Assembly (NCBI GenBank): GCA_036001065.1
Contig: DASYUQ010000098.1
Span: 1-60,999, forward strand
Reading direction: 5' to 3'
Origin: Candidatus Methylomirabilota bacterium
GTDB lineage: Bacteria; Methylomirabilota; Methylomirabilia; Rokubacteriales; CSP1-6
Length of the DNA: 60,999 bases
The position numbers and the translations under genes are program-made. How positions within the stretch are numbered: the first letter of the stretch is position 1; each line of letters starts with the position of its first letter. Positions 8,507 through 11,129 of this stretch are shown piece by piece. The notes below the pieces were generated by a model that ran no database searches, had not been told where the DNA came from, and saw only the letters and a program-made list of their open reading frames with translations.

Positions 8507-8869
8507 ATGCCGCAGGGTTCAACGACCTTTCACGAGTCCGAAGAGCGCCTCACACCCGCCACGCGCGACATGCACCGCGCGCTCGTCAGCCTGATGGAGG
8601 AGCTGGAAGCGATCGACTGGTATCAGCAGCGGATGGACGCGACGCAAGACGACGAGCTGCGCGACATCCTCCGCCACAACCGCGACGAAGAGCAGGAGCA
8701 CGCCGTGATGGTGCTCGAGTGGATCCGCCGCCGTGATCCCGGCTTCGAGACGAGGCTCCGCGCGCATCTGTTCACCGAAGGCCCGATCGTGGGCCGGGAG
8801 GAGGCGGTCACCGACCGACGGCCGGCGGCCGGCAAGGGCGGGCTCGGCTCGCTCAGGGGGGTGCGATGA
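8507..8869 (+). CDS. Encapsulated ferritin-like protein with encapsulin-targeting tail
   Basis: Cargo of the adjacent encapsulin. The 120-residue product has the two-helix encapsulated-ferritin pattern: ELEAIDWYQQRMDA, then HNRDEEQEHAVMVLEWIRRRDP, supplying Glu and His ligands for a ferroxidase site that forms only on dimerisation. The last ten residues, GGLGSLRGVR, match encapsulin cargo-loading peptides (core GSLRG) and follow a flexible linker. Known homologues oxidise Fe(II) inside the encapsulin shell for iron storage and protection from oxidative stress. The stop overlaps the encapsulin start (ATGA), so the two are translationally coupled. An ACGAGGT Shine-Dalgarno lies upstream. Confidence 0.93.
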   Translation: MPQGSTTFHESEERLTPATRDMHRALVSLMEELEAIDWYQQRMDATQDDELRDILRHNRDEEQEHAVMVLEWIRRRDPGFETRLRAHLFTEGPIVGREEAVTDRRPAAGKGGLGSLRGVR

Positions 8870-9669
8870 TGGACAACCTCAGACGCGATTCGGCGCCTCT
8901 GTCCCCGCGGGCCTGGAAAGAGCTCGACGAAGCGGTGGCCCGGGCCGCTCGCCACGTGCTCACTGGCCGGCGCGTGGCGAGCTTCGACGGCCCCCGGGGA
9001 TGGGATCACATGGCCACCCGGCTCGGCACCATGACCCCGTGCGCGACCCGGGAGGGCCAGGCCGTCGTCTGCGTGCCCGAGATGGCGCTCCTGGCCGAGA
9101 TCCGGGCGGACTTCAGCCTGTCGTGGACCGCCGTGGAGGTCTTCGAGCGCGGCGCTCCGACGCTCGACACCTCCGCTGGCGAGGGCGCCGCGCGCGAAGT
9201 GGCGCTGGCGGAAGACCGCATCGTGCTCTACGGCGACCCCGTGGGGCACGGCTTCCTCGAGTCGGAGGGCTCCCCGAGCGTGACGGTGCAGGACTGGTCC
9301 AAGCCGGGCCAGGCGCTGAGCGACGTCCTGCGCGCCGTGGAAGCCCTGGACGGGCTCGGCATCAGCGGGGCCTACGAGCTGGTCCTCTCGCCCGCGCGGT
9401 ATTACGCCTTCCTGCAGGGTGCCGAGGACGGAGGCTATCCCACGTCGCGCCACCTCAAGACGGTGATCGAGGGAGTGCACCGCTCCGCCGTCTTGAAGCA
9501 GGCGGGCGCCCTCTTCTCGACGCGCGGCGACGATTTCGTGATCACGGTGGGGGGCGACCTCTCGGTGGGCTATCGCGGGCACGATACCGCCGGCGTCCAT
9601 CTCTTCTGCATCGAGACCGTCGCTTCGCAGGTGGTGACGCCCGAGGCCGTCTGTCTGCTGAAGACGTAG
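8866..9669 (+). CDS. enc: Family 1 encapsulin shell protein
   Basis: HK97-fold shell protein that assembles into an icosahedral nanocompartment around cargo. The 267-residue product has the classic N-terminus (NLRRDSAPLSPRAWKELDEA), the segment containing GRRVASFDGPRGWDH, the KPGQALSDVLRAVEALDGLGI region and the C-terminal E/A-domain strands. Length is standard for family 1. A second ATG directly after the first could be used. The upstream overlapping gene is the ferritin cargo, so this is an iron-storage encapsulin. No other cargo gene is adjacent. Confidence 0.95.
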   Translation: MMDNLRRDSAPLSPRAWKELDEAVARAARHVLTGRRVASFDGPRGWDHMATRLGTMTPCATREGQAVVCVPEMALLAEIRADFSLSWTAVEVFERGAPTLDTSAGEGAAREVALAEDRIVLYGDPVGHGFLESEGSPSVTVQDWSKPGQALSDVLRAVEALDGLGISGAYELVLSPARYYAFLQGAEDGGYPTSRHLKTVIEGVHRSAVLKQAGALFSTRGDDFVITVGGDLSVGYRGHDTAGVHLFCIETVASQVVTPEAVCLLKT

Positions 9670-9841: not shown

Positions 9842-10891
9842 ATGCTCAAATCCGCAGAGATCCGGCGGCAGGCGGCCCAGCGGCTGCGGGATCTGTTCCC
9901 CCAGGCCAAGGGGTGGGAGGAAAGCGCCGACGTGGCGATCGGAGGCCAGAGTGCGGATTTGATGGTCAAATTCCGTCTGGGCGATCAGGAGCGCGTGCTC
10001 GTGCTTGAGGTCTGCTCCCTCGGGCAGCCGCGGCAGATCCGGGCCGCCGTGACGCGCCTCACCGAGATCCGACGCGAGATGCCCACGGCCTACCCGCTGG
10101 CGACGGCCGTCTACATTGGTCCCCAGAGCGCCCGGATCCTCAAGAGCAACGGCCTCGGCTATCTGGACCTGTCCGGCAACTGCTACCTCGCGCTCGAGAA
10201 CGTCCTCATCGAGAAGGAGGGCAAGCGCAACGTGCGGCCCTCCACGCGTCCTCTGCGCTCGCTCTTCGCCCCGCGAGCGACCCGCGTGGTGCGCGCGCTC
10301 CTCGCCGAGCCCGGGCGGGTCTGGCGGCTCGAGGAGCTGTCCCGCGCGGCCGAGGTGAGCCTGGGCCACGCGCACAACGTCGTGAAGCGACTCGAGGAGC
10401 TGGCGTGGGTGGAGCGCGACGACCGCCAGCGGATCCGGCTCACCAAGCCCGCCGACCTGCTGGAGAACTGGGGCGAATCCTACACCTATCGCGACAACGA
10501 GATCCTCTCGTACCTCCTCCCCGAGCGCGTGACGCGCAAGTTCATGAGCGACCTGGCCCGGGCCGCGGAAACGGCGGGCCGGCGCTACGCCCTTACCCTG
10601 AACGCCGGCCTCTCGCTGGTCGCGCCCTACATGCGGATCCCGGCCGTGCACTGCTATCTCGAAGGCGACCCGGCCCCGGTCATCGCCGCGCTGGGGCTCC
10701 AGCCCACGACGGAGACCGAGGCCACGCTGCATCTCCTCGCGCCCTACGATCCGGGCGTCTTCTACGGCGCGCTCGAAAAGGGTGGCTTGAAGGTCGTGTG
10801 CCTACCCCAGCTCTACGTCGATCTCCTGCGCTACGAGCGCAAGGGGGCCGAGCAGGCCGAACATCTACGCCGCGAGGCGATGGGCTACTGA
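9842..10891 (+). CDS. AbiEi-like antitoxin/transcriptional regulator family protein
   Basis: 349 residues, resembling proteins annotated as type IV toxin-antitoxin AbiEi-family antitoxins. The N-terminal ~120 residues look like a restriction-endonuclease-type fold (GGQSADLMVKF, RVLVLEVCS), but the expected E-x-K is EVC, so nuclease activity is unlikely. A segment NGLGYLDLSGNCYL follows. Residues ~140-210 look like a winged helix (LLAEPGRVWRLEELSRAAEV..AHNVVKRLEELAWVERD), and the C-terminal part (GLSLVAPYMRIPAVHCYLE) resembles that of AbiEi-type regulators. No AbiEii nucleotidyltransferase is adjacent, so this is an orphan and more likely a regulator. Two lysine-only micro-ORFs follow directly. 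Confidence 0.6.
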   Translation: MLKSAEIRRQAAQRLRDLFPQAKGWEESADVAIGGQSADLMVKFRLGDQERVLVLEVCSLGQPRQIRAAVTRLTEIRREMPTAYPLATAVYIGPQSARILKSNGLGYLDLSGNCYLALENVLIEKEGKRNVRPSTRPLRSLFAPRATRVVRALLAEPGRVWRLEELSRAAEVSLGHAHNVVKRLEELAWVERDDRQRIRLTKPADLLENWGESYTYRDNEILSYLLPERVTRKFMSDLARAAETAGRRYALTLNAGLSLVAPYMRIPAVHCYLEGDPAPVIAALGLQPTTETEATLHLLAPYDPGVFYGALEKGGLKVVCLPQLYVDLLRYERKGAEQAEHLRREAMGY

Positions 10892-10919
10892 GGAGCCCTG
10901 AAGGGAGGTGAGCTCATCC

Positions 10920-10955
10920 ATGAAGAAAAAGGCGACGAAGAAAAAGAAGAAGTAG
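10920..10955 (+). CDS. Lysine-only micro-ORF 1 (11 residues)
   Basis: ATG to TAG encodes MKKKATKKKKK, 8 of 11 residues being lysine. It is preceded by a near-perfect ribosome binding site, GGGAGGTGAG, with 7 bases to the ATG. The gene starts 28 bases after the AbiEi-like gene ends. A second micro-ORF with the same composition and the same GGAGGTGAG-N7-ATG arrangement lies 48 bases on. The function is unknown; a nucleic-acid-binding or charge-neutralising peptide or a regulatory leader are possibilities. The paired layout argues against chance. Confidence 0.5.
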   Translation: MKKKATKKKKK

Positions 10956-11003
10956 CGCCGCGTCAGCAGTGGACGCGTCCCTAGAGAGGAGGTGAGACGG
11001 TAG

Positions 11004-11042
11004 ATGGCCAAGAAGAAGAAGTCGGCCAAGAAGAAGAAGTAG
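11004..11042 (+). CDS. Lysine-only micro-ORF 2 (12 residues)
   Basis: ATG to TAG encodes MAKKKKSAKKKK, with 8 lysines in 12 residues. GAGGAGGTGAG lies upstream with a 7-base spacer, identical in layout to micro-ORF 1. The stop is followed by the convergent rpmB gene ending at 11130. AAG codons predominate, as expected at this GC content. Confidence 0.5.
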   Translation: MAKKKKSAKKKK

Positions 11043-11129
11043 CACCCGCTTCACGGGTGGGGGGTGGCGGCCTCCCACCTTGCAACCAGCCGGGAGGGGG
11101 CGATGCCCCCTCCCGTTGTGCTCATGTGC

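Follow-up and report, generated by a model that had tools for sequence, protein, structure and literature searches.

Can a reading frame of about a dozen codons, nearly all of them for lysine, be a gene in its own right, and if so, what might its product do? This question is raised by two micro-ORFs, here called K1 and K2, in the 60,999-nucleotide stretch of DNA that was analyzed (the window), which comes from a Rokubacteriales bacterium of the phylum Methylomirabilota. An earlier note, made from the sequence alone, had proposed that both are expressed, and had suggested a nucleic-acid or polyphosphate binding role or a lysine-sensing leader role.

Two Lysine-Rich Micro-ORFs Downstream of an AbiEi-Type Regulator

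K1 (positions 10920–10955 of the window, forward strand, ATG to TAG) encodes MKKKATKKKKK, and K2 (11004–11042, forward strand, ATG to TAG) encodes MAKKKKSAKKKK. Both were identified by reading the sequence and by synonymous bias in relatives (see below). They consist of 11 and 12 codons, respectively. Each is preceded by the Shine–Dalgarno (SD) sequence GGAGGTGAG (10904–10912 for K1 and 10988–10996 for K2, both on the forward strand), with exactly 7 bases between it and the ATG. Direct reading agreed with the earlier note on both ORFs, their stops and this identical spacing; its term "lysine-only" was too strict, as lysine dominates both peptides but Ala, Thr, and Ser are also present. We searched the 4.46-Mb genome with the pattern AGGTGA-N3/10-TG-N0/6-three Lys codons and found two matches, both at the K1–K2 locus, whereas the reversed pattern, used as control, gave none. 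A chance origin of K1 and K2 was thus rejected.

The gene immediately upstream (9842–10891, forward strand) encodes a winged helix-turn-helix (wHTH) regulator of 349 amino acids with HTH_IclR and AbiEi_2 (PF09952) domains, both above the Pfam cut-offs. No AbiEii nucleotidyltransferase was seen among the genes neighboring it. This gene is presumed to be the first cistron of a transcript whose last two cistrons are K1 and K2, and transcription of the micro-ORFs would then depend on it. Downstream, rpmB (ribosomal protein L28; 11130–11321, reverse strand) is convergent with K2, showing that K2 has no same-strand gene immediately after it, and recG lies beyond rpmB. Just 5' of the AbiEi gene, an EncFtn-like encapsulated ferritin gene and an encapsulin (Linocin_M18) gene overlap by a few bases (8507–9669). 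In a sister species (locus L035), the ferritin match is limited to the first 31 codons and the encapsulin gene is gone; the pair is found again at two other loci (L051 and L077).

A 9-bp GC hairpin, GGTGGGGGGTGGCGGCCTCCCACC, is located just 3' of K2 (11056–11079, forward strand). It occurs once in the genome. The remaining Rokubacteriales loci that were read retain it, and a corresponding element (GCTGGGGG..CCCCCAGC) is found outside this order. In a covariation analysis of 18 sequences, 92% of the cells pair and four pairs have changed on both sides in a compensatory manner; both controls were lower. This hairpin likely marks the 3' end of the unit or acts as its terminator, and the transcript carrying K1 and K2 would end there; as no T run follows it, a terminator role is likely rather than established. 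The distance from the last ORF to the hairpin ranges from about 12 to about 150 nt between loci. In family f10, the hairpin lies about 130–150 nt further downstream, behind a second foldable stretch. This conserved stretch, GGCCUUGGUGACCGA...CGGUUGCC, was observed about 150 nt after K2 at the Methylomirabilis-like f10 loci L114 and L118–L124, where it separates K2 from the terminal hairpin, and showed weak covariation (9 sequences). Neither the K1–K2 locus nor the f10 stretch had an Rfam match above threshold, and a known RNA family was rejected on this basis. A second GC hairpin in the window, CGGGAGGGGGC-GAT-GCCCCCTCCCG (11091–11115), lies between the convergent units and is probably the rpmB terminator. 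It was not accepted as part of the K1–K2 unit, because it is changed or gone in deeper relatives and faces rpmB.

Distribution in Rokubacteriales

Orthologs of the AbiEi-type regulator were detected in 56 of the 57 genomes of the host's family and also in the other three families of Rokubacteriales; all named loci belong to Ca. Rokubacteria/Rokuibacteriota or Methylomirabilota. SD-preceded Lys-rich micro-ORFs were present between the regulator and rpmB at all 46 loci that retain the region downstream of the regulator, some loci being listed under two names for the same genomes, so that the counts of 46 and 57 overlap. Two micro-ORFs were found at 38 of these loci and, by the same criterion, one at the remaining 8; thus, the pairing emphasized earlier is real in this genome but is not a rule. 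The three further families contain two micro-ORFs each after the AbiEi gene. Among relatives, the spacers diverge, ATG, GTG, and TTG starts interchange, and lengths differ by whole codons. Close relatives were thus checked for absence of the ORFs, the refuting condition named in the earlier note; the ORFs were present, and the original finding survived. Distant AbiEi paralogs elsewhere lack such micro-ORFs. Many of the genomes compared, here and below, are metagenome assembled, and the comparison covers one phylum.

A Third Copy with Its Own Predicted Promoter

A class-wide pattern search matched a second locus in Rokubacteriales, which we named K3 (e.g., GTG-AKKKATKKKKK). It lies at a distance from K1–K2, either between nrdR and a B12-binding radical-SAM gene (assigned by Pfam) or after pyrE (named by eye). 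K3 was present in 28 of the 37 genomes examined via the radical-SAM neighbor; in one of the nine that lack it, a contig end interrupts the locus. In several genera, K3 and the radical-SAM gene are divergently oriented and nrdR runs toward K3, implying that the predicted K3 transcript contains no other gene. A predicted promoter resembling TTGACA-16/19-TAGCAT (e.g., TTGACA-N17-TAGCAT) was located 33–56 nt 5' of the start in 26 of 33 cases. K3 also has its own SD, and the stop is followed by the same GC hairpin as at K1–K2, GGCCCTG...CGGCAGGGCC, in 23 of the 33, several others having a variant. Such a stand-alone gene argues strongly against both a lysine-sensing leader and dependence on the regulator.

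In the genome studied here, the K3 promoter, SD, and hairpin are kept (contig C77, about 25.4–25.6 kb; L186:960–1130) and exactly the ORF is missing, whereas a sister species (L177) has it. This may reflect a genuine deletion or an error in the assembly. The apparent loss suggests that not every copy is needed.

Micro-ORFs in Other Orders of the Phylum

Of 95 Methylomirabilota genomes scanned for the pattern, 89 gave matches. Outside Rokubacteriales, the micro-ORFs follow a different two-gene unit, unrelated to AbiEi, that encodes a 189-aa wHTH protein and a 149-aa HEPN protein (PF05168). At each of the 30 HEPN loci, one or more Lys-rich micro-ORFs lie directly downstream, two in most cases. 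Orthologs of the HEPN protein occur in families f5, f6, f7, f9, and f10 and are absent from Rokubacteriales, where the two weak matches are distant; the distribution of AbiEi orthologs is the reverse. No solved-structure relatives of either the AbiEi-type regulator or the HEPN protein were found. Thus, the link to an AbiEi regulator drawn in the earlier note is real in Rokubacteriales but is not general, considering that other orders use another gene pair and that K3 has no regulator.

Within each order, the genes on the upstream side of the micro-ORFs stay the same and those downstream do not: in the other orders, an aldehyde dehydrogenase, an acyl-CoA dehydrogenase, an ornithine-cyclodeaminase-family gene, or lptC may follow, the last mostly in f10. 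The micro-ORFs persist between orders although the genes on both sides differ. In addition, a zincin-like metallopeptidase gene upstream in f9 resembles that upstream in Rokubacteriales, which suggests a single ancestral locus whose regulator was exchanged between orders.

The wHTH and HEPN genes of Methylomirabilales and allied orders match the PADLOC candidate defense pair PDC-M05A/B (E-values of 1e-40 and 1e-12). Despite this match, the pair at f5–f10 loci L112–L141 occupies a fixed chromosomal position throughout whole families, is followed by micro-ORFs, and is absent from Rokubacteriales. Its fixed position suggests a housekeeping rather than a defense role. A search of plasmids revealed no match for the HEPN pair with micro-ORFs, and the micro-ORF pattern was not found in viral contigs.

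Selection on the Reading Frame and Composition of the Peptides

To characterize the changes within codons, we used only pairs of sequences with four or fewer differences. The ratios of synonymous to nonsynonymous codon changes, which should be read as effect sizes and not as P-values because the pairs share branches, were 33:12 for K1 (33/45), 117:45 for K2 (117/162), and 79:20 for K3 (79/99). The synonymous share of 72–80% at the three loci compares with an expected 0.21–0.26 from random mutation of the same sequences, and third codon positions hold most of the changes in all three sets, indicating that the reading frame is under purifying selection at K1, K2, and K3. The motif GGTGA was found 4–9 nt 5' of the start in 133 of 134 homologous ORFs. 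Together, conservation, synonymous bias, and SDs at three loci strongly support the earlier proposal that the ORFs are expressed, and on these sequence comparisons K1 and K2 are very probably real, selected microproteins.

The 134 ORFs, which include both groups of orders, encode 1,130 Lys, 402 Ala, 75 Thr, 45 Arg, 45 Gly, and 34 Pro residues; the 19 others are Ser (7), Val (7), Glu (2), Cys (2), and His (1). In these GC-rich genomes, lysine is retained in preference to arginine. The low-complexity, basic K/A/P/T make-up known from H1-like lysine tails is present in the 134 ORFs; on the other hand, the folded domain to which such tails are attached is absent, and the tail is the entire ORF. 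These ORFs make up a family of very small polylysine proteins that had no name and that annotation has missed, and no description of such peptides was found in the open-licence literature.

Bacterial microproteins and other products of small ORFs, such as those of the global smORF catalog, are similar in being conserved short ORFs overlooked by standard annotation. The minimum length in that catalog is 30 nt (PMC11364881). Unlike usual smORF products, the micro-ORFs described here are at this lower length limit, and their extreme composition is masked by similarity filters. Micro-genes of extreme composition may thus escape gene callers, similarity filters, and short-ORF catalogs alike, and genes of 10–13 codons can be conserved throughout a phylum and have an SD, a predicted promoter, and a likely terminator of their own.

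Possible Function of the Polylysine Microproteins

Several bacterial proteins, including TopA, HupB, Ku, and AlgP/PhaF, have lysine-rich tails that bind DNA; AlgP is also found in association with polyphosphate granules (PMC9239181, PMC7398561). The micropeptides resemble the H1-like tails (the KPAA domain of AlgP/PhaF, the HupB tail, and the lysine repeats of actinobacterial TopA) in being low-complexity K/A/P/T sequences that are predicted to be disordered and polycationic. Unlike these tails, which are parts of proteins of 100–350 aa or larger, a micropeptide is a whole product of 10–30 residues with its own SD and, in the case of K3, its own predicted promoter.

A reasonable hypothesis is that the family consists of translated, selected microproteins of 10–30 residues, made almost only of K, A, T, R, G, and P, which would diffuse as disordered polycations, with a net charge of about +8 to +9, and bind a polyanion. 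The near-perfect SDs would drive translation of K1 and K2. AbiEi proteins can autorepress their operon (PMC3985639), and the AbiEi regulator may therefore tune K1 and K2, K3 running from its near-consensus promoter. As a K/A/T/P chain of 10–30 residues would be unable to fold or to dock by shape, charge may be its sole property, and the peptides might act like detached lysine tails of the histone H1/AlgP/HupB type. The polyanion itself is a matter of conjecture, DNA or RNA being the first candidate and polyphosphate the second; a nucleic-acid or polyphosphate role is the leading, though unproven, option. None of this genome's six HU proteins has a lysine tail, so that a free tail might conceivably act on DNA. 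Translation of the peptides and their action in trans are inferred from the comparisons above. Provided that the microproteins are real and selected, a trans-acting polyanion binder is a fairly probable function, and for the hypothesis as a whole we consider the chances to be slightly better than even. The broader proposal, a phylum-wide class of free-standing polylysines with at most three micro-genes per genome that act in trans as protamine- or H1-tail-like polycations on the nucleoid, RNA, or polyphosphate, is plausible but falls somewhat below even chances.

If action in trans is true, lysine tails need not be appendages of larger bacterial proteins, the form known so far, but can also be separate and separately regulated products. 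The family would be among the shortest stand-alone housekeeping gene families known, hidden from annotation by length and low complexity. The design of three loci, two in one unit and one alone, makes a clean genetic test possible.

Alternative Explanations

An unlikely alternative is that the ORFs act in cis, a polylysine so short perhaps acting only during its own synthesis: translation of the lysine run would slow or stall ribosomes, or sense charged tRNA-Lys, and thereby control mRNA stability or 3'-end formation, leaving the released peptide without a job. The location of K1 and K2 beside regulators, at the end of the unit and with a conserved hairpin soon after K2, could indeed indicate an RNA-level or regulatory role, and the very strong SDs would suit it as well. 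Stop codons may point in the same direction, the 134 micro-ORFs using TAG (93) and TAA (41) but never TGA, so that RF1 can terminate all of them, whereas the AbiEi gene just 5' ends in TGA in 37 of 45 Rokubacteriales cases; rpmB and the RelA-type gene also rarely use TGA, and this bias is thus noted and not pressed. The lysine codons are 90% AAG rather than the slippery AAA, which speaks against stalling, although the AAG excess also follows GC content. The variable distance between the last ORF and the hairpin, and a K3 that is remote from K1–K2 and predicted to be transcribed without any partner gene, also count against a cis function. Considering that the peptide persists while regulators, neighbors, and spacers change, and that it can stand alone, a trans-acting product fits better than a cis-acting ORF.

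Less probable still is a subunit-like role, in which the micropeptide would attach to a single particular protein or to the ribosome, in the manner of the very small basic ribosomal proteins. Retention of lysine over arginine, strong predicted expression, and the adjoining rpmB in Rokubacteriales would agree with such a role, but the peptides lack any hydrophobic, aromatic, or otherwise structured residue for specific docking, and rpmB adjoins the ORFs neither in other orders nor at K3.

It is improbable that the micro-ORFs are components of a toxin–antitoxin or defense unit together with the upstream genes, even though both alternative upstream units (AbiEi-like, and wHTH plus HEPN) are related to such families. 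Their position is fixed and vertically inherited through whole orders, unlike that of mobile defense genes. The upstream gene shares the AbiEi_2 domain and winged helix of AbiE type IV systems (PMC3985639), but micro-ORFs occupy the place of the adjacent AbiEii nucleotidyltransferase, and other orders have wHTH and HEPN genes instead. Moreover, the HEPN protein has no obvious R-x4-6-H motif as judged by eye, AbiEi paralogs elsewhere are not accompanied by such ORFs, and K3 has no such partner.

Amino-acid attenuator leader peptides, such as those of the trp and his operons, are encoded by short ORFs rich in one amino acid, with an SD and a hairpin nearby. K1 and K2 share these features, and the earlier note had proposed lysine-sensing leaders; as leaders or attenuators of a following gene, they are nevertheless very improbable. 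In Rokubacteriales, the next gene is the convergent rpmB, the hairpin probably closes the unit, and several genera have no same-strand gene after the stand-alone K3, on which grounds the idea was rejected for this order. Other orders do have same-strand genes after the hairpin, some from families with lysine-catabolism members (an OCD/piperideine-2-carboxylate reductase-like gene and an acyl-CoA dehydrogenase with a glutaryl-CoA dehydrogenase match). These family names are far below curated cut-offs, other genomes have lptC (mostly in f10) or an aldehyde dehydrogenase in this place, and the downstream genes are of mixed function; a link to lysine catabolism was thus also rejected. It is the upstream genes, and not a regulated downstream gene, that stay constant within each order.

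A chance or RNA-only feature, that is, an AAG-rich stretch of RNA from which no protein is made, is hardly credible despite the conserved hairpin beside the ORFs: third-position changes dominate in all three sets and arginine is encoded by CGC/CGG, which together reject an AAG repeat, and start and stop codons and the SD are kept across the phylum.

One variant of the peptides was observed in family f10 (L115–L124). Here the first micro-ORF, at about 23–30 aa, is longer, and its C terminus is often GGRGC, GGKGC, or TGRGC; the conserved terminal cysteine was not observed in other members of the micro-ORF family.
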